Positions 942-9,807 of a stretch of DNA of 64,000 nt are shown here, one piece after another (within the stretch, counting starts at the first letter, position 1; every line of letters begins with the position of its first letter). The translations under genes were made by a program, and so were the position numbers. The DNA is taken from assembly GCF_037991315.1 (NCBI RefSeq), contig NZ_CP150300.1:6200001-6264000 (forward strand), written 5' to 3'. The notes beneath the pieces are model-generated. The model saw only the letters and a program-made list of their open reading frames with translations, made no database searches and was not told the DNA's origin. This DNA is from Paenibacillus sp. FSL H8-0079. GTDB taxonomy: Bacteria > Bacillota > Bacilli > Paenibacillales > Paenibacillaceae.

Positions 942-3539
942 TTACTCGATCAGACCTGATTTTTGCAAAAGCCTTTGGATAATCGTTGCTGCTTCAGCGC
1001 GAGTCATGTTCGCCTTGGGTGACAGTGCTGCTTCGCTTCTGCCAGAAATTACACCAGCTTTCACGCTTTCTGCAGTACCCGCTTGCGCCCATGGAGATAC
1101 TTGAGATGCATCCCTGAATGAAGATAGCACTTCTGCCGAAGATACTACCGATGGATTAGTGTGCAGACCGGTAAGAATCATCGCTTTAGTAAGGATCACC
1201 ATGGCCTGTTCACGCGTAATCTTGTCAGTCGGCTGGAACGTACCATCCTGATAACCATCAATTAGCTGGTACACATAGGCCGTGTTGATCGCTGAATGAT
1301 GCCAGTCCGAACCATTAACATCAGTAAACGGCACTGTTCCTTCCTCTTTCGCCTGTACAAGCCCCAGGCCACGTACGAGGATTGCCGCGAACTCGGCTCG
1401 GGTAACTTCCTGATCCGGGCTAAAGTTTGCGCCGCCTAACCCTTCGATAATTAACCGTGATCCCATGTCATTCACCGCCGCTTTGGACCAGTGTGTCGTG
1501 ACATCGCCAAATTCAACCGGGTTCCATACGACAGCATACATGCTATTGGTTAAGCTATTGATTTGCGCATAATATTGCCCATCAATATTCATCACTTTAG
1601 TAGGTACATGTCGAACCCTTCCGTCCGGATCAATCACAACGCCTGTTGTAAGCTTGGTTCGATCTACCCCTTCCGGGATGGAGAGATTACGTTGTACATA
1701 GGCATTAAATTTTGATAAGACCTCCGCGTTGTCCCCATAAACTACTCGGATTGTAAAATTCAGTGGCGGAACCACCATCGATAGTTTGGCTGTTGCCAAT
1801 GCGTTCTCCACCATCTTCAATTGATCTTTTTTCGGAACGGCAATCTCGATCTGAACCTTGACATCTTCCAGATGAACTGAAGATCCTGCCTGATTTAAAG
1901 TGGAATTAATTCGGATTTCTTTTGCAGGAATTCTGTAGATTGCCTGTCCCGTCCTAATCTCCACAATAGCATCCTTGCTAACCATACTCTTCACCATTTG
2001 ACCATTCAATTCACCGATCACTACCTCCGATGTGCCACTGATCGGAATCGTGATGACAGCGCCTTGACCTTCTGTTGCCAGCCTAGCCTCCAATTTCTGC
2101 TGATCTACAATTAGAGTGGTAATCTTCTGGTTATCACGCTCAATCGTTGTGATTATACCCGCTCGCTCAGCCTTACCATTGATCAGAATATCGGCTCCGC
2201 TCCCTGCCGCCGTTGTTGTAACTATAGCTGATGGTGGCGTTGGTGAAGAAGAGCCACTGCCGCTACCACTGTTACCGCCACCATTTCCGGTACCCCCTCC
2301 GCTACTGCCGGATGATATCGGTGTGACCATCACCTTATTCGAGTCTTCACTCAAGCCTACCCTGTTACCCGCTTTGACCTTAAAGTAGTAGGTAGTTCCG
2401 TTAGTAAGGCCGTTCACGCTGTATGTCCCGTCAAATACCTTCGCCACTGCATCTTCGTTGATGAAATTCGAGTCCATCGATTGGTAGACGTTATAGTATG
2501 TAGCTCCTGTTACTGTATTCCAATTCAGATCCACCTTGCTGTCTCCACCCGATGCAATCAGGTTTTGTGGAATGCCAGGAAGACTCGGCCCCTGCAACGT
2601 TATTTTCCCAGGCACCAACGTTTTAATCATTTCAATACCATCTACTGTAGTCACAGAGAAATACAGCACGTCTTCGGTCTGAACGGTCAATGCCTTGTCT
2701 TCTATGGTTGCCTCTTCCCTAATCTTGAAGGTGATCGTGAACAGCTTGTCTCCACTCTGAATTGGTGTGTCACCACCATCACTATCTGCCCAGGCCACCT
2801 TCAGCCAACCTGCCGTGTTATTATAATTTGAATCAACATAGTCACCCGCTTCTTCCGTAATATGCTGCACTTCCAGTGCAGCAGCATCGTAATCGATCCG
2901 CAGACTGTAACTGCCGATTCCGGTTGTTGTACCGGACACGGTTACCGGAACTTCTACCGTTTCACCTTCAGAGCCACTTGTCGAGCCAATATTGATCTGT
3001 GCTGTAGGCTGCGGGGCAATAACCGTAATTTTCCCGGCGATACCGGAAGAACCATCGGCTTGGATTCCCCCTTCATACAGATCATGCTTCACCACAGTGA
3101 TCTCCAAGTCTCCAGAACTGACATCATCCTTGATTTTGAAATGAAGCGTTGCTACGAGTTCTTTTGTAAATAAAGCGTTCGTTGAAAGTTCCGCAGACAA
3201 TTCTATTATTCCGGGAGTCGATGTGATGATCTCATACGTTTCATTCGAGGCTACTCCAATCTCATCCGTGACTTCACTGCCTGAAACCAATTCCAACATA
3301 TTTTCATCATATCCAAGCGCAATATCGAACTTCTCAATCATATCTTCCGGCGTTACATATATCCCTATACTGACTTCTTCCCCCGGTAAGCCCGAAGCAG
3401 TACCCACCTCAACCACATTAGTTACTGCCGGTGCAGCCTCTACTGTCATACTCATGGACAGCAGCATGCTCGCCACCAGCAATATTGACACCAACCTTCT
3501 AGTGAGATTCGCTTGTTTGGTGAAAAAATATGTATACAT
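942..3539 (-). CDS. Secreted cohesin-Fn3-SLH surface anchor protein
   Basis: 865 residues. Residues 1-35 form a signal peptide (charged start, hydrophobic core, VEAAPA cleavage region). Two cohesin-like beta-sandwich modules follow at about 43-174 and 181-315; each begins with a G-x-x-G-E-x-V-x-(I/V)-(G/P)-(I/V) strand and ends in GKIT. A fibronectin type III domain lies at about 321-408, a Gly/Ser linker at about 409-433, an unrecognised region at about 436-655 and three SLH motifs at the C-terminus (for example TRAEFAAILVRGLGL, TREQAMVILTKAM, TRAEAATIIQRLL). SLH domains bind pyruvylated wall polymers, so the protein should be wall-bound with cohesins exposed. Its RBS lies in the last codons of the upstream dockerin gene (4-bp gap), so the two are probably translationally coupled. 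The cohesin call comes from sequence pattern only; related hydrophobic-beta-sandwich modules are the alternative. Confidence 0.82.
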   Translation of the reverse strand: MYTYFFTKQANLTRRLVSILLVASMLLSMSMTVEAAPAVTNVVEVGTASGLPGEEVSIGIYVTPEDMIEKFDIALGYDENMLELVSGSEVTDEIGVASNETYEIITSTPGIIELSAELSTNALFTKELVATLHFKIKDDVSSGDLEITVVKHDLYEGGIQADGSSGIAGKITVIAPQPTAQINIGSTSGSEGETVEVPVTVSGTTTGIGSYSLRIDYDAAALEVQHITEEAGDYVDSNYNNTAGWLKVAWADSDGGDTPIQSGDKLFTITFKIREEATIEDKALTVQTEDVLYFSVTTVDGIEMIKTLVPGKITLQGPSLPGIPQNLIASGGDSKVDLNWNTVTGATYYNVYQSMDSNFINEDAVAKVFDGTYSVNGLTNGTTYYFKVKAGNRVGLSEDSNKVMVTPISSGSSGGGTGNGGGNSGSGSGSSSPTPPSAIVTTTAAGSGADILINGKAERAGIITTIERDNQKITTLIVDQQKLEARLATEGQGAVITIPISGTSEVVIGELNGQMVKSMVSKDAIVEIRTGQAIYRIPAKEIRINSTLNQAGSSVHLEDVKVQIEIAVPKKDQLKMVENALATAKLSMVVPPLNFTIRVVYGDNAEVLSKFNAYVQRNLSIPEGVDRTKLTTGVVIDPDGRVRHVPTKVMNIDGQYYAQINSLTNSMYAVVWNPVEFGDVTTHWSKAAVNDMGSRLIIEGLGGANFSPDQEVTRAEFAAILVRGLGLVQAKEEGTVPFTDVNGSDWHHSAINTAYVYQLIDGYQDGTFQPTDKITREQAMVILTKAMILTGLHTNPSVVSSAEVLSSFRDASQVSPWAQAGTAESVKAGVISGRSEAALSPKANMTRAEAATIIQRLLQKSGLIE

Positions 3540-3543
3540 CTGC

Positions 3544-5352
3544 TCACCCCTTCCCTGTATATGCTTGCAGAATCATCTGTACATCCAATTCATCCAATAC
3601 TCCATCACCATTCATGTCCAGTGCATCCTGCTGTTCCGGGGTCAATGTGATCTTGCCCTTGAGGTATCTGGTCAGTAGCAACGCATCCGCAGCAGTAACC
3701 CGACCATCACCATCAGCATCTCCCTTTATAATCTCTGGTGCATAGAACGCTGTATACATAATCGATGTATTTATGATTGTAAGTGAGAGTTCCTCACTAC
3801 TAAGCTTGGTTGTCCCGCCATCGCTGCTCCAGCCCGTGAACCTGTATCCAGTGTGGGGTGTTACTGCCGGCACTGCTGACGGGGAACCGCCGTTAGAGAC
3901 TGTCTCTTGAGCCATCCCGCTGAGCATTCCGTGCTCTCCCGGCAGATAGCTCACCGTTACGCTGGGCGTTGTCCACTTGGCATACAATTTGACACTTGCA
4001 TTCCTGATCGTAAACGTGTCTCCCGGCAGATAATTCGTTCCGTTGCCATCTGCGGAAGTATTCCAGCCAGCAAAGACATAACCTAACTTCTCCAGGTTGC
4101 CTGTATTGCCGGATACCGTCACGCTCGCCTGGTTATCATACACATTGCTGTCAATTGGCACACTGCCCACGGATGCACCACTGCTGTCGTAGGTCACCGT
4201 ACTGGCCTCTGCAAACCTCATCATGGTGAGTCCTTGACCATGTAAGCTATCTTTATAAGCAACGAAAGGCACACCATCATCTATGGCCAGCATCGTATTA
4301 TTGACCAATCCAGCGGAGAAACCTGCATTACCCACCCGTTCCCATTCGCCATCATCCGGACTGTATTTCATCACCGTAGCTTTTGCGGAATTGACATTAT
4401 CTCGAAAAGAAATAAAAGGCGTACCGTCTTCACTAAAAGCTAAACTTGTAAAAGAGACTGCTCCAGCAGAGAAACCTTCATTCCCTACAGGCATCCAGCC
4501 ACCCGGCTCGTTATAAGTAATAACCGTCGCCCGATTGCCCTTGGTATTATCAGTTATAGCGAGGTATGGCTTACCATTATAAATCGCATACGAAAGGGGG
4601 TTGTTTACATTGGAATTGAACTCGCCACTGCCTAACTTAATCCATCCATTCGATTCCGAATATTTCATAATAACGGTTTGAGTTCCGTTATAGTTATATT
4701 GATAGATAAACATAGGAATTCCGTCATTCACTTCCATATACATATCTGAAGGCACGTCTTCCAGATAGATTTTGTCTCCAAACGGCTCCCAGTTGCCGGT
4801 AGTTTGATTAAGCTTCATAACAAACAACTGTTTATTATTGGTATAAGCCATATAAGGCACGTCATTTTGGTCTAATGCCACCGCAGGAGAGGCACCCGAT
4901 GAGAAGAAGGCGTCGTTCGGATTGCCAACAGGCGTCCACCCACTCCCCTCGCTATACTTCAACACCGTTGCTCTGGAATTATGTGATCTATCCGAGTAGG
5001 TGATGTAAGGAACCCCATTATGAATGGTAATCGGGGTAGTATAGAATGTTTGTTCGTTAATACCTGTATTATCGAGCTTCTTCCAGCCATCCGTGCTTGT
5101 ATACCTCATGACATTTAAACTGCCGTTTACGCCTTGAAAAGTCACATAGGGAATGCCATCTTCCATCGCCATCTTGGGATAACTTATATATTCGTTATAG
5201 AACCCTTCGTCGCCCACCGGCTTCCAGATCCCTGAAGCGGCATAAGCGCGATCCGCCTCCCGTGTCTGGAATGCAGATACAGAGCCGATGATTAATACCA
5301 AAGCCAATATAATGCCTACTGTTTTTCTTGCGCTCAGGATACTCATGTTCAT
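3544..5352 (-). CDS. Secreted beta-propeller-like protein with InlB-type repeats and C-terminal dockerin
   Basis: 602 residues with a signal peptide (about 1-38, ending YAAS). Residues about 41-375 hold seven repeats of about 48 residues, each opening with a W-x-(P/K)-(V/L)-G-like motif (GIWKPVG, DGWKKLD, SGWTPVG, GNWEPFG, NGWIKLG, GGWMPVG, GEWERVG), consistent with a seven-bladed propeller. Two InlB/Listeria-Bacteroides-type repeats follow, with GYVFAGWNT and GYRFTGWSS. The last about 60 residues are a type I dockerin with two calcium loops, DADGDGRVTAAD and DMNGDGVLDELD. The dockerin's obvious candidate partner is the cohesin protein encoded immediately downstream. The start ATG has AAGGGAAGG upstream; an internal ATG two codons later is possible. 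No catalytic residues were recognised, so the propeller may bind a ligand rather than hydrolyse. Confidence 0.82.
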   Translation of the reverse strand: MNMSILSARKTVGIILALVLIIGSVSAFQTREADRAYAASGIWKPVGDEGFYNEYISYPKMAMEDGIPYVTFQGVNGSLNVMRYTSTDGWKKLDNTGINEQTFYTTPITIHNGVPYITYSDRSHNSRATVLKYSEGSGWTPVGNPNDAFFSSGASPAVALDQNDVPYMAYTNNKQLFVMKLNQTTGNWEPFGDKIYLEDVPSDMYMEVNDGIPMFIYQYNYNGTQTVIMKYSESNGWIKLGSGEFNSNVNNPLSYAIYNGKPYLAITDNTKGNRATVITYNEPGGWMPVGNEGFSAGAVSFTSLAFSEDGTPFISFRDNVNSAKATVMKYSPDDGEWERVGNAGFSAGLVNNTMLAIDDGVPFVAYKDSLHGQGLTMMRFAEASTVTYDSSGASVGSVPIDSNVYDNQASVTVSGNTGNLEKLGYVFAGWNTSADGNGTNYLPGDTFTIRNASVKLYAKWTTPSVTVSYLPGEHGMLSGMAQETVSNGGSPSAVPAVTPHTGYRFTGWSSDGGTTKLSSEELSLTIINTSIMYTAFYAPEIIKGDADGDGRVTAADALLLTRYLKGKITLTPEQQDALDMNGDGVLDELDVQMILQAYTGKG

Positions 5353-5521
5353 TTGTCTCTTCCTTCCCTTTTGCAGATTTGTAGTATCAATAAGTCATAC
5401 CGTGTTTTCCAGGTATGCTTCATTAGTCACCTCATATCCGCTGATTCTTTTGTCCCATTGCTTAATGCCCAGTATAAAAAATGTCACCTTAAAAAAACCT
5501 TAAAAACCACAACATTTCGAC

Positions 5522-5549
5522 AAAAAAGGCCTCATCTATTGATGAGACC
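5522..5549 (-). terminator. Rho-independent terminator of the kinase gene
   Basis: Stem GGCCTCATC (5528-5536) pairs with GATGAGACC (5541-5549) around a 4-nt loop. On the minus strand it is followed by TTTTTT. It separates the two-component genes from the dockerin-cohesin pair, so the latter should have its own promoter in about 5353-5520, where none was identified with confidence. Confidence 0.88.
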
Positions 5550-5602
5550 CTGTTGGGTTCAATATTCTGCATGAAATTCAAGAGCTCTCGGTGATGAACC
5601 AG

Positions 5603-8600
5603 CTAGAGCAAGGCAGTAGGGATGCGCACAGTAACCTTCGTTCCTTCTCCCAGCTCGCTCTCCAGTTCTAGAGAAATGCCGTATTCATGCATCAATCTTT
5701 TGTTAATATTCAGCAAGCCTACTCCTTGAGGCTCATGGATCTCAGCTCGATGCAGCAGCGACTTCAACCGTTCCGGTTCGATTCCAACGCCATTATCGAC
5801 TACAATAAATCTCCAATCCCCCGCCGACACCTCTGCAATCAAAGTAACCGTTCCTCCCTCGGGCCGTCCTCCGATGCCATGCCGTATTGCATTTTCGACC
5901 AACGGCTGCAACAGCAGCGGCAAGATACGCAAATCATGAGCACCATCTGCAATATCCGCTTCAAAGCGGATGCGATCCTTAAAACGCGCCTGCTCAATGG
6001 CAACATAGGTACGGATTAATTCAAACTCCTCTGTAAAAACAACCCGCTCATCCGCATTACTGAATCGGAAGCTACCGCGCAAGTAATCCGCCAGATCCAC
6101 AATCATGCTCCGTGCGCGTTCGATATCCGTATAACTTGATGCCACGATACTATTTAACACGTTGAACAAAAAGTGGGGCTTGATTTGTGATTGCAGAAAG
6201 GCTACTTCCAGATGGATCGCACGTCCGAGCGATTCTTTCATCGCCAGCAGGCTCCCGATTCTCGCCTTAAGTTCCTCCACATCAAACGGCTTCGGTAAAT
6301 AATCATTCGCTCCTGCCTGAAAAGCGGCCACCTTATCCTGCGGTTGAATGGCCGCCGTCACCATAAGAACGGGTAGTTCCAGTGGCGAGTATCGTTCTCG
6401 AATGCGCTGGCATACCTCATAACCCGACATGCCCGGCATCATCAAGTCGAGAATAACCAGATCGATTTTACCGGATTGTTGCATCTGCTCCAATGCCTCA
6501 TGTCCATTTTTGACTGCGATCACACGATAATTGAGCACTTGTAGAGCATCAATCAGCACCTTCAGATTCTCATACTGGTCATCAGCAATCAAAACCGTAT
6601 GCTTCCCGGAATAATTTGAATAATATGGTGTATCGAAGGAATATCCTTTGGACTTGGGTACCACCTCAGTGCTGGCAAGCATTGATTTCGCAGCACTATT
6701 ATGATCTGCGATGGGCATCGTGATTGTGAAGATAGAACCAACCCCAGGCGTAGAAGAAACCTTAAGTGTGCCGTGCTGTAGCTCAATCAGTTGCTTGGCA
6801 ATGGGTAGCCCTAATCCAAAACCGCTTTGCTGACTCTCGCCGGGGGACTTGAACGGTTGGAAGATCAGCTCAATATCTTGCGGTTCGATGCCTCTGCCTG
6901 AATCCTGCACTGCAATTTCAAGCTTGCCTCCACTCTCTTTACCTGTTATTACAACACTTCCGTTCTCGGCATTCTTAATCGCATTATCCAGCAAATTGCC
7001 CATTACCTGACTTAGACGATTCTCATCGGCCAATGCAGAAGGCAGATTAGCAGGAATCAGGTTGACCAGTTGAATCTTGCGCTCAGCGGCAAGGTAGGAG
7101 TAAAAACGCACCTGCATCTCCACAACCGAACGAATATCAATGGGTGCTGGAACCATTCTGAGTTCGCCCTGTCTCAGCTTGGACAAGTCCAAAATGTCGT
7201 ACACCAGCTGTGATAATCTTTTCGTCATGTCGGTCATCAACTGCAATTTTTCCCGCTGCTCAACCGTAGGAGGGTATGTAGCATCATTAAGCATAGAGCG
7301 TGAAATATTCATAACCACATGAAGTGGTGTCTTGAATTCATGTGAAGTTCGGGCAAGAAAGTCATCCTTAACGCGATCCACTTCCAGCAATTGCTCTGAT
7401 AACACCTCTATTTTATGAAAAGCATTGGAGAAGCGAAGCGACATTAGCAGAGCTAGCATTAGGAGTACTAAAAAGGGTTCAATCGGCGCAAGCTCATAAA
7501 CCGGTACGCCAAAGTAGAAATTCATATTCTGTTTCAATATCAGAACATTCAGAGCCATAGCTGCTAAGGCCAAATATCCACTGCCAGCAACTCGCTCAAG
7601 AGCAGCCAGCACGAATACGTATGTTGCATACAGCAAGGAAAAGGTGACATAGAACGTCGTAAACTGTCGGAATGCACCAAAAGTTAACAAAGGTCCAAAC
7701 AAACTGTGAAGCACGATGAGCAGTCCGCCTACCATCAATCCTCCTTGAAGGATCCGTTTGAAAACATAGGGACGGAAAGCTGTATACAGGTAGAGGTAAA
7801 ATCCAAAGGCGCCCCCCACGGCAGATACGATCTGAATACGAAAATATAACCAGAATGGCAATGGGCCAACGATCTGGAACAATACTCTTTCACCGCCGAC
7901 GCTTGTAAACAAGGCAATCAGCGCACACACGATTCCAAATACGAGAAGAGAACGATCATGTCGTCTCTGAGAGTATAAACCGATAAAATACAAACCCATA
8001 ATCAAAAAGGCGGTTACCGTAATCCAATCATGAGCCAAAGCTTTGTCACGAAGCCCGGATATTTGATCAGCTTCACCTAATACAATGGGTTCAATAATCC
8101 CGCTACTGGCGAAGAATTCATGATTAGCTACCTGAAGTAATATTTCATTAACACCCGGTTTCAGCATGAAATAGCTTACATTGGGTTTATTGAGGGCTGA
8201 GTACTCCCCTTTTTCACCCGGATTCCCACTAGAACTGACCAATTGTCCATTCATGTACAATTTATTGGATACGACAATGGATGCCGTTTTGATCCCATAT
8301 ATCCTACTCGCGTACCTGTCGTTAATTTCCAGCTGCAAGCGATAAGTTGCCATGCCATTCATTGGCATCAGTCCAGACCACGAACCTGGTACCATAATCC
8401 GGGAAGGCTTCAGTGCATCTTCCATGAGAAAGGAGGAAAAATCACGATGGGTTAACAGCCTGTCCGGATATATCTCCCATTCCCCATTCAAGGGAATCAT
8501 GCCATCTTCTGCGAATGTCCAAGACGTTAAATCCATGACACCATTTACGGCGGTGAGAGCTTCTTTCTTATTCATTGAGAAGTATGTAAGTAAAATGCTG

Positions 8601-8656
8601 TACGTGGCGACCAATAATAAAATAGTGATCAGAGCCGCGGCAATTTTTTTTCTCAT
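5603..8656 (-). CDS. Hybrid sensor histidine kinase with 7TMR-DISM input, HisKA, REC and LytS-type kinase modules
   Basis: 1017 residues. TM1 is at about 7-26. An extracellular 7TMR-DISM sensor domain (jelly-roll type, LNGEWEIYPD, GSWSG) spans about 40-195, and seven membrane segments span about 208-410. A HisKA domain has phospho-His H439 in SHEFKTPLH. The first HATPase spans about 535-650 (NLLDNAIKNA, DSGRGI, GFGLGLPIAK). A receiver at about 686-800 has D737 (ILDLMMPGMSG) and K789. A second, LytS-type kinase module has H828 in QIKPHFLFNVLNS, and a second HATPase has LLLQPLVENAIRHGIGG (about 913-930) and a final GVGLLNI glycine box. Its ATG overlaps the stop of the response regulator gene by 4 bp (8653-8656), so the pair is coupled. 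DISM domains are thought to sense carbohydrates or other small ligands; the ligand here is unknown. Confidence 0.93.
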   Translation of the reverse strand: MRKKIAAALITILLLVATYSILLTYFSMNKKEALTAVNGVMDLTSWTFAEDGMIPLNGEWEIYPDRLLTHRDFSSFLMEDALKPSRIMVPGSWSGLMPMNGMATYRLQLEINDRYASRIYGIKTASIVVSNKLYMNGQLVSSSGNPGEKGEYSALNKPNVSYFMLKPGVNEILLQVANHEFFASSGIIEPIVLGEADQISGLRDKALAHDWITVTAFLIMGLYFIGLYSQRRHDRSLLVFGIVCALIALFTSVGGERVLFQIVGPLPFWLYFRIQIVSAVGGAFGFYLYLYTAFRPYVFKRILQGGLMVGGLLIVLHSLFGPLLTFGAFRQFTTFYVTFSLLYATYVFVLAALERVAGSGYLALAAMALNVLILKQNMNFYFGVPVYELAPIEPFLVLLMLALLMSLRFSNAFHKIEVLSEQLLEVDRVKDDFLARTSHEFKTPLHVVMNISRSMLNDATYPPTVEQREKLQLMTDMTKRLSQLVYDILDLSKLRQGELRMVPAPIDIRSVVEMQVRFYSYLAAERKIQLVNLIPANLPSALADENRLSQVMGNLLDNAIKNAENGSVVITGKESGGKLEIAVQDSGRGIEPQDIELIFQPFKSPGESQQSGFGLGLPIAKQLIELQHGTLKVSSTPGVGSIFTITMPIADHNSAAKSMLASTEVVPKSKGYSFDTPYYSNYSGKHTVLIADDQYENLKVLIDALQVLNYRVIAVKNGHEALEQMQQSGKIDLVILDLMMPGMSGYEVCQRIRERYSPLELPVLMVTAAIQPQDKVAAFQAGANDYLPKPFDVEELKARIGSLLAMKESLGRAIHLEVAFLQSQIKPHFLFNVLNSIVASSYTDIERARSMIVDLADYLRGSFRFSNADERVVFTEEFELIRTYVAIEQARFKDRIRFEADIADGAHDLRILPLLLQPLVENAIRHGIGGRPEGGTVTLIAEVSAGDWRFIVVDNGVGIEPERLKSLLHRAEIHEPQGVGLLNINKRLMHEYGISLELESELGEGTKVTVRIPTALL

Positions 8657-9807
8657 GAACCCTGCCTCAACGCATTGACTTTAGTTTGTCTAATCAATTG
8701 CAGTGTCTCTTCTTCCAGTTCAGTTCCTAACTGCGAACATACCGCGTCTTCCAGCTGTAAGCACACACGGTTGGCTTCATTTCGATTCCCCATTTCCAGA
8801 TGCATTCTGATTAACTCACGCCCGTCCTGTTCCGAATCAGGAGTAATGGTCAGAATGCGTTCCAGACTATTTACGGCTAGAGCTATCTGACCCTGGAAGC
8901 GAAAATGTACATGCCATTTACGAAGTGCACGAACATAAGCAGACTGAATCTCCATTCGTCTCGCCTCAGCCCATCTGAAATCACAAGCTTCCATGTATTC
9001 CCCTTTGTAAATCAGGTTTATGCTGTCATATAAGGTAGTATCCCATTCCTTTTCCAACCTTGTGTCATAAGGATACTGGCTTAACATTTGTTCGAATCCC
9101 TTCGCATCAATCTGCACCGCCTCGCAATCTGCCACAAAACCTTGATTGGCTTTATGAATGCGTATTGGAATATTGTGCTCAGCAAGACTTCTTCTTAAAT
9201 AGGAAAGACAGGTGTATACATACGTCTTTGCCTTTTTTAGATCATAGCCTGGCCAAATGGCTTCCAGAATGGCAGAAGTACTAGAGGATTTTCCTGCATT
9301 ATGGATCAAATATGCGCAAAGTTCCTTTTCCTTTTTGGTTTTCCAAGGCAGAACCTTTTTCTCGTGACCCGGAAGTTGGATATGGAATCCTCCAAGGCAC
9401 TGGATCAGTGGAGAATCTTCGTGGCTTTCAGGCGCGGCAGGGCTGGATAGAGAATGTCTTATACGCCCCACCGCATTATGTAATCGTTCAAGGGTGAACG
9501 GCTTAAGAAGATAATCCATCGATTGGACTTCAAACGCTTCAACAGCATACTCCGCATAAGCGGTCGTGAATACGATGGGCATATGCGGGGTCATGCGCCT
9601 GATCTCCCGCGCGACTTCCATTCCATTCATGCCTGGCATCTGTTGATCCAGGAACACCGCATCAACAGGAGTCTGGCTCAGTGTCTTAACTGCTTCAATC
9701 GGATTGATAAACCTTCCAACCACCAATACATTGCCAACTTGTTTGAGTAGAATCTCCAACAAATCGAGTGCGTCTTCTTCATCATCAATAAGCATTACAC
9801 GAATCAT
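8653..9807 (-). CDS. Response regulator, REC + winged helix + BTAD (SARP-like)
   Basis: 384 residues. The receiver (about 1-115) has the acidic pair D8/D9, phospho-acceptor D54 in VFLDQQMPGM, T81/T82 and K102 in LLKPF. Residues about 135-235 look like an OmpR-type winged helix (WKTKKEKELCAYLI, YVYTCLSYLRRSL), and the rest is a bacterial transcriptional activation domain of helical repeats (VRALRKWHVHFRFQGQ, IRMHLEMGNRNEAN). It is probably a DNA-binding activator phosphorylated by the kinase encoded immediately downstream. The RBS AAGGAG lies about 9 nt before the ATG. Likely targets are the dockerin and cohesin genes on the same strand, by proximity only. Confidence 0.9.
   Translation of the reverse strand: MIRVMLIDDEEDALDLLEILLKQVGNVLVVGRFINPIEAVKTLSQTPVDAVFLDQQMPGMNGMEVAREIRRMTPHMPIVFTTAYAEYAVEAFEVQSMDYLLKPFTLERLHNAVGRIRHSLSSPAAPESHEDSPLIQCLGGFHIQLPGHEKKVLPWKTKKEKELCAYLIHNAGKSSSTSAILEAIWPGYDLKKAKTYVYTCLSYLRRSLAEHNIPIRIHKANQGFVADCEAVQIDAKGFEQMLSQYPYDTRLEKEWDTTLYDSINLIYKGEYMEACDFRWAEARRMEIQSAYVRALRKWHVHFRFQGQIALAVNSLERILTITPDSEQDGRELIRMHLEMGNRNEANRVCLQLEDAVCSQLGTELEEETLQLIRQTKVNALRQGS

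Follow-up and report, generated by a model that had tools for sequence, protein, structure and literature searches.

The two genes at positions 942 to 5352 of the window, the 64,000-nt stretch of the Paenibacillus sp. FSL H8-0079 genome analysed here, quite probably specify one two-piece device of the cell surface that is controlled by a neighbouring histidine kinase and response regulator. The product of the downstream gene (gene 2) would serve as the anchor, with SLH repeats on the wall polymer and two cohesins facing outward as sockets. The product of the upstream gene (gene 1) would be the functional head, a propeller carried on InlB spacers and plugged into the anchor via a calcium-binding dockerin. 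The propeller is probably a carbohydrate- or surface-binding adhesin, and the operon would be switched by the neighbouring kinase and regulator through a direct repeat of 11-bp period placed like a SARP operator. From genome comparisons, such a non-cellulosomal two-part surface assembly appears to be conserved and likely has a dedicated two-component switch. The parts are of known kinds; the novelty lies in the dedicated pairing, in the lack of a recognised enzyme domain in the heads, and in the regulation.

Domains of the two proteins

The earlier note on this DNA, made from the letters alone, had described a dockerin with two clear calcium loops and, in the next gene, two cohesin-like modules and three SLH motifs. 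These descriptions held. The dockerin of gene 1 reached 51.7 bits with PF00404 (cut-off 22.9), both calcium loops are intact, and the module has the features of a type I dockerin. In gene 2, both cohesins, the fibronectin type III (FN3) domain and the three SLH repeats all scored over the Pfam cut-offs. The N-terminal modules combine matches to the cohesin profile PF00963 with a cohesin fold, and comparison with PDB cohesins shows a clean type I fold for cohesin 2. The junction of the two genes reads AGGGAAGGGGTGAGCAGATG. As had been noticed before, a ribosome site lies within the final codons of gene 1, whose stop is followed 4 nt later by the start of gene 2.

Gene 2 is predicted to specify an SLH-anchored surface protein, with a putative signal peptide, three SLH repeats and a pyruvylated wall polymer as the anchoring route; CsaB, which has a role in making the SLH ligand, was found over the cut-off in the genome. 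Secretion-type N-termini were judged from the sequence, without a signal-peptide predictor. With 104 matches to the SLH repeat, the genome encodes a large set of SLH surface proteins. The module of about 230 aa that precedes the SLH repeats is common to other cohesin-SLH and single-chain SLH proteins of Paenibacillus.

A hidden Markov model (HMM) of the propeller repeat, whose build includes the window protein, gave seven matches at residues 43-383 of the gene 1 product, and Foldseek and VIA-align matched this propeller to propellers in the PDB. Reading a function from the fold was set aside, since many unrelated propellers score alike. That the propeller is an enzyme, which would bring the operon closer to a cellulosome as a minimal system of an enzyme on an anchor, appears improbable. 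The NCBIfam scan of the two window proteins revealed no enzyme over the cut-off, and a glycosidase domain, which the earlier note had recognised in neither, was found neither there (Pfam, NCBIfam) nor in 17 further dockerin-type proteins, 18 being scanned with that of the window. A GH85_C match in the window anchor is weak, below the cut-off and overlaps FN3; it was taken as FN3-like and not as an enzyme. The same applies to GH85_C in the anchor of cassette B described below (42.5 versus 27), where no single stretch passed and FN3 is again overlapped.

Table 1. Features of the operon and its neighbours (positions in the window)
Feature	Position	Strand	Basis
Gene 1, 602-aa propeller-InlB-dockerin protein, secretion-type N-terminus	3544..5352	-	Pfam and structure model
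Seven-bladed beta-propeller, residues 43-384, seven repeats of ~49 aa	4201..5226	-	repeat HMM, AlphaFold2 strands, Foldseek and VIA-align
Two InlB B-repeat domains (Flg_new, residues 385-459; Flg_new_2, residues 466-538)	3739..4200	-	Pfam
Type I dockerin, two calcium-binding F-hands, residues 543-594	3571..3726	-	Pfam Dockerin_1, E 9.9e-14
Gene 2, 865-aa cohesin-SLH anchoring protein	942..3539	-	Pfam and structure model
Cohesin 1, divergent class	3093..3413	-	profile match, tree
Cohesin 2, canonical type I class	2628..2999	-	profile match, fold, tree
Fibronectin type III domain	2331..2570	-	Pfam
Conserved module without Pfam match, residues about 447-677	1509..2201	-	recurrence in relatives
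Three SLH repeats, predicted cell-wall anchor	987..1511	-	Pfam
Operator-like direct repeat TTAAGGT-N4-TTAAGGT, 11-bp period	5486..5503	-	sequence, shuffles
-10-like box TATACT, 9 nt past the second repeat	5471..5476	-	sequence
Terminator-like hairpin past the kinase gene	5526..5551	-	hairpin scan
Hybrid histidine kinase: 7TMR-DISM, HisKA-HATPase, receiver, His_kinase-HATPase	5603..8656	-	Pfam
Response regulator: receiver, winged helix (Trans_reg_C), BTAD (SARP-like)	8653..9807	-	Pfam

Pairing of dockerin and cohesin genes

The subject genome (G000, 6,708,762 bases) was searched for dockerins and cohesins at E <= 0.01. Three dockerin and seven cohesin matches were obtained, all within three cassettes in which a dockerin gene is followed by a cohesin-SLH gene; the search for other dockerin proteins proposed earlier thus led each time to such a pair. 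Cassette A is that of the window. Cassette B (locus L011) combines an NHL-propeller/InlB/dockerin protein with a four-cohesin anchor, and cassette C (L012) a 349-aa protein containing an internal dockerin with a one-cohesin anchor. The dockerin of cassette C scored 21.7 as a whole protein, against the cut-off of 22.9, and 24.7 in the genome search.

In 75 genomes of the genus, dockerins were found in 41 (67 hits) and cohesins in 39 (86 hits). Genes were considered paired if the cohesin lay downstream of the dockerin on the same strand, within 1.5 kb and in a separate open reading frame (ORF). This was the case for 44 of the 67 dockerin hits, and for 44 of 49 when ORFs under 1000 aa are counted. 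Six hits share their ORF with a cohesin and 17 had no cohesin in range, 12 of these in ORFs of more than 1000 aa; closer examination covered the smaller dockerin ORFs and a minority of the lone cohesins. At least one pair is present in 31 of the 75 genomes, and 19 of the 31 hold a single pair. The 40 gene gaps measured, with start codons assigned mechanically, range from -68 to 276 nt, and 23 of them are 18 nt or less, overlaps included. A family-level search, restricted to cohesins, gave matches in 123 of 197 genomes. A chance neighbourhood of dockerin and cohesin genes was set aside because the three dockerins and seven cohesins of the 6.7-Mb genome sit in three such pairs, and the pairing is kept across the genus.

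The passengers of the cassettes are diverse. A scan of genome contigs run with an alignment gave a relative where a first scan had not. A passenger of the window type is present in genomes G017 and G053 (53-56% identical). At L024, L026 and L028 it is a DUF6242/YCF48-like propeller with CBM_X2. Type B passengers elsewhere are NHL-like, NHL being over the cut-off in three of five tested, just under it in one and absent from one. In five dockerin proteins of types C and D that were scanned, no propeller match was found. According to a quick tree, with long branches flagged by the tree tool, the cohesins fall into two classes, which keep their order in the two-cohesin anchors (types A, X and B). 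Beside a cohesin-SLH gene at L054 (G005), a type C dockerin gene is apparently split into two ORFs.

In a comparison of 22 dockerins (types A, X and B), conservation was higher in F-hand 1 (0.83) than in F-hand 2 (0.70), a hint that F-hand 1 may be the binding face. The weaker conservation of F-hand 2 would also suit a different reading, in which dockerin and cohesin modules are decayed or generic, the cohesins act as spacers, and an old operon persists without assembly. The divergence of cohesin 1 and departures of loop 1 from the usual calcium pattern, in the second dockerin of G017 and with T at loop position 3 in L042-L044, point the same way. Intact calcium loops in the window, the clean fold of cohesin 2, and the pairing and order kept in 44 of 49 cases make this reading very unlikely. 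In the preferred reading, the dockerin would be bound by the adjoining anchor, presumably in a calcium-dependent manner.

Linked kinase and regulator genes

Upstream of gene 1 lie genes for a hybrid histidine kinase and a response regulator. The kinase contains two histidine-kinase cores with the receiver between them. Four terminator-like sites were detected in the region (shuffle mean 3.4). Neighbours of this kind were searched in 19 genomes, comprising all 18 with propeller-type cassettes and G006, in which 7TMR-DISM matches number one to eight and BTAD matches one to seven per genome. Of the 21 propeller-type cassettes, 16 had a 7TMR-DISM match within 6 kb on their own strand, versus none of the 10 of type C or D. 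A regulator stands near all 16 kinase-linked cassettes, recognised by a BTAD match in 12 and as a blastp homologue of the window regulator in the other four (L023, L024, L025, L028). The kinase is placed upstream in types A and X and downstream in type B. Kinases at other loci are ~29-42% identical to that of the window, with 71% in G017. The loci are partly related by descent and do not represent 16 independent events, but the difference in placement suggests that the linkage arose at least twice.

Cohesin genes without a dockerin neighbour but with the kinase and a BTAD regulator were found at G004:C62 and G006:C12. At L055:6051-9308 (G006), cohesin, NHL and SLH repeats are combined in one protein beside a similar kinase and regulator; no dockerin match was found within 6 kb of it.

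The earlier note had proposed a non-cellulosomal adhesion or sensing complex. A two-part, non-cellulosomal assembly from one operon is supported by the pairing in 44 of 49 cases and by the lack of a glycosidase domain in the proteins scanned, and for sensing the linked kinase and regulator are indirect evidence. It is conceivable, if rather unlikely, that the system forms a closed loop, the wall-held propeller acting as a ligand-catching antenna of the 7TMR-DISM kinase, which in turn adjusts antenna supply. The dockerin link would then make the antenna exchangeable or releasable, e.g. by a drop in calcium, unlike in single-chain versions, and passengers would have been swapped in evolution while socket and switch were kept.

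The promoter repeat

Upstream of gene 1, the sequence TTAAGGT-TTTT-TTAAGGT is followed after 9 nt by TATACT (5503-5471, minus strand). Repeat and box are identical at L023, and L022, which lacks an adjoining kinase, has the same repeat with a TATGAT box. The arrangement TTCAGAA-N4-TTCAGAA-N8-TATACT was found at 12 of 13 type C loci read, at three of seven type D loci and at the X loci L026 and L027; other X and type B promoters carry variants of the repeat. In the subject genome, L012:8152-8169 (G000:C1:2864151-2864168), in the cassette C promoter, is the sole TTCAGAA-N4-TTCAGAA site. L026 and L027 are X-type cassettes without a neighbouring kinase, yet with this repeat. When compared with 300 block shuffles, the exact 11-bp run stood out in types A, X, C and D with p of 0.02 or less, except for 0.06 in L036.

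These sequences can be summarised by the motif TT(A/C/G)AG plus two loosely fixed bases, present twice with an 11-bp period, 8-9 nt before a -10-like box. It was found upstream of 32 of 41 dockerin genes, with 34 matches in total in 1,106,082 bases, both strands summed (~553 kb of DNA); being drawn up after viewing the sequences, many of them orthologous, it describes the sites and does not test them independently. The nine genes without it are those of L011, L024, L025, L033-L037 and L057. The spacing from repeat to box is 9 nt in the window, L022 and L023, and 8 nt in type C and in type B outside the subject genome, where repeats are imperfect. SARP targets are described, in the part of PMC10936776 that concerns them, as direct repeats 11 or 22 bp apart with the 3' one 8 bp from the -10 region. 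The layout of 11-bp direct repeats ahead of a -10-like box is thus that of a SARP-type promoter, to which the neighbouring regulator would bind.

A first, narrow operator pattern matched in two of 12 genomes. With the wider TTCAGAA-N4-TTCAGAA, 20 sites in nine of 12 genomes were obtained (reversed control 0); seven of the 20 were identified as cassette promoters. A scan for the sigma-70 consensus gave no support for the promoter, with four sites against a shuffle mean of 9.7 and the -10-like box unlisted, probably because a -35 region is missing. A second repeat site in the subject genome, TTAAGGTACGGTTAAGGT at L182:7845 (G000:C1:2010844), lies upstream of a 557-aa ORF and is present in 16 of 20 genomes searched; no -10-like box occurs there at 8-9 nt.

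Single-chain counterparts

The repeat with the TTTT spacer occurs at nine sites in 20 genomes, three in front of type A cassettes, five in front of single SLH genes and one in G006. The single SLH genes (G004, G052, G053, G057, G058) are preceded by TTAAGGTTTTTTTAAGGT. In these five genomes the regulator is 57-61% and the kinase 63-67% identical to that of the window, in the same gene order; by sequence, the pairs are orthologous to the window's. The single-chain products have 1632-1735 aa, and their C-terminal part is 44-51% identical to the window anchor over 493-631 residues. Big_2 repeats, FN3 and SLH were detected in the four scanned. The HMM of the window propeller repeat matched three of these four with E values of 8.6e-07, 6.8e-06 and 3.1e-05 and the fourth with 0.015 (13-sequence set); of eight shuffled or reversed controls, three were listed, at 0.86 to 1.1. 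The N-terminal part thus resembles the window propeller in the four tested. G053 contains both the two-gene and the single-chain build, with identical repeats. Further one-chain propeller-SLH proteins are P0083 and P0037. The occurrence of such single-chain proteins, also behind the same putative switch, argues most strongly for the dockerin protein and the cohesin-SLH protein being halves of one display.

Evidence against a dedicated pair and switch

Several observations weigh against this interpretation, besides the descriptive nature of the motif. A genome of the same species, G040, has cassette C only and lacks cassette A. The kinase is absent from five of the 21 propeller-type cassettes, including cassette B of the subject genome, which is also without the operator motif, and in type B the exact 11-bp run reached p 0.02 at one locus and 0.14 or worse at 11 of 12. 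TTAAGGT-N4-TTAAGGT with any spacer gave 29 forward matches versus five for the reversed control in 20 genomes, and two, one being the window promoter, versus one in the subject genome. Neither a cassette nor a single SLH gene stands behind the TTTT-spacer site of G006, and window and single-chain propellers gave a weak signal when compared profile to profile (P 0.028, probability 1.7%). Finally, two cohesins of different classes face one adjacent dockerin gene in the window, and with 62% identity between the dockerins of A and B, cross-binding is possible.

The last two points lead to a reading compatible with two-part display: dockerins A and B may dock on either anchor, giving a mixed surface with several combinations. 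The dockerin of cassette C is more distant (24-29% identical to A and B), the quick tree places cohesin 2 of A together with two cohesins of B, numbers 2 and 4 (support 86), and the existence of two cohesin classes may reflect more than one partner. In G017, two dockerin genes flank one two-cohesin anchor, which may therefore carry two heads: a second dockerin protein (L023:4960-6705; YCF48-like match, Ig, InlB, dockerin) is encoded just downstream of the anchor. No 11-bp-period run was found upstream of its gene. One-to-one gene pairing across the genus, and a single pair in most genomes with pairs, speak against a mixed surface, which is a real possibility at somewhat less than even chance.

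Significance

Cohesin-dockerin interaction is the glue of cellulosomes. Here it seemingly provides a plain two-gene kit for displaying heads that lack a recognised enzyme domain; the kit is present in 31 of 75 genomes of the genus and often accompanied by a switch of its own. The kinase and regulator beside 16 of 21 propeller-type cassettes and the repeat before 32 of 41 dockerin genes are new observations. In titles and abstract starts of the open-licence literature, neither cassette nor regulator was described, which is no proof, subscription papers being mostly outside this search. A like switch with a one-chain version in relatives offers a natural experiment on what a cell gains when plug and socket are separate proteins instead of one chain. 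The cassettes also offer small, possibly orthogonal pairs for surface display, together with a clear candidate operator.

Comparison with known systems

With clostridial cellulosomes that have an SLH anchoring scaffoldin, the system shares a type I dockerin and cohesins on an SLH anchor. It differs in that each anchor has a single dockerin gene in the same operon, and that the subject genome has dockerin proteins without an enzyme match and no carbohydrate-binding module (CBM)-bearing scaffoldin. All three of its dockerin proteins lack a glycoside hydrolase match, no CBM match was found in the three anchors, and cohesins number two in the window anchor and at most four per anchor. A cellulosome was set aside, no dockerin enzymes being found in the subject genome.

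Non-cellulosomal cohesins and dockerins were reportedly reviewed by Peer et al. in 2009. The cohesin proteins of Clostridium perfringens and Archaeoglobus are not known to carry an SLH anchor. Their modules (PDB 2w1n, 2vo8, 2xdh) likewise stand outside cellulosomes, and belong, judged by the PDB titles, to glycoside hydrolases or an archaeon. The cohesin/dockerin set of Paenibacillus guangzhouensis is closer, coming from the same genus and including SLH-anchoring scaffoldins. According to that report (PMC11557425), it comprises 35 cohesin proteins, of which 28 are dockerin-cohesin adaptors, many with glycoside hydrolase domains, with one dockerin outside scaffoldins, and its authors thought a conventional cellulosome unlikely. 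The subject genome instead has three gene pairs, dockerin first and anchor second, and none of its ORFs combines the two modules.

The PLL/PHL lectins, bacterial seven-bladed propellers, are 10-11% identical to the window propeller in the matches listed, and other propellers score alike. SARP promoters such as that of afsS under AfsR are similar in their 11-bp direct repeats, the last 8-9 bp before the -10 region, as far as the part of PMC10936776 dealing with them goes, and here too a winged helix and BTAD regulator is encoded next door. Different from AfsR and afsS, the regulator has a receiver domain ahead of its DNA-binding part, and what it presumably controls is a surface operon.
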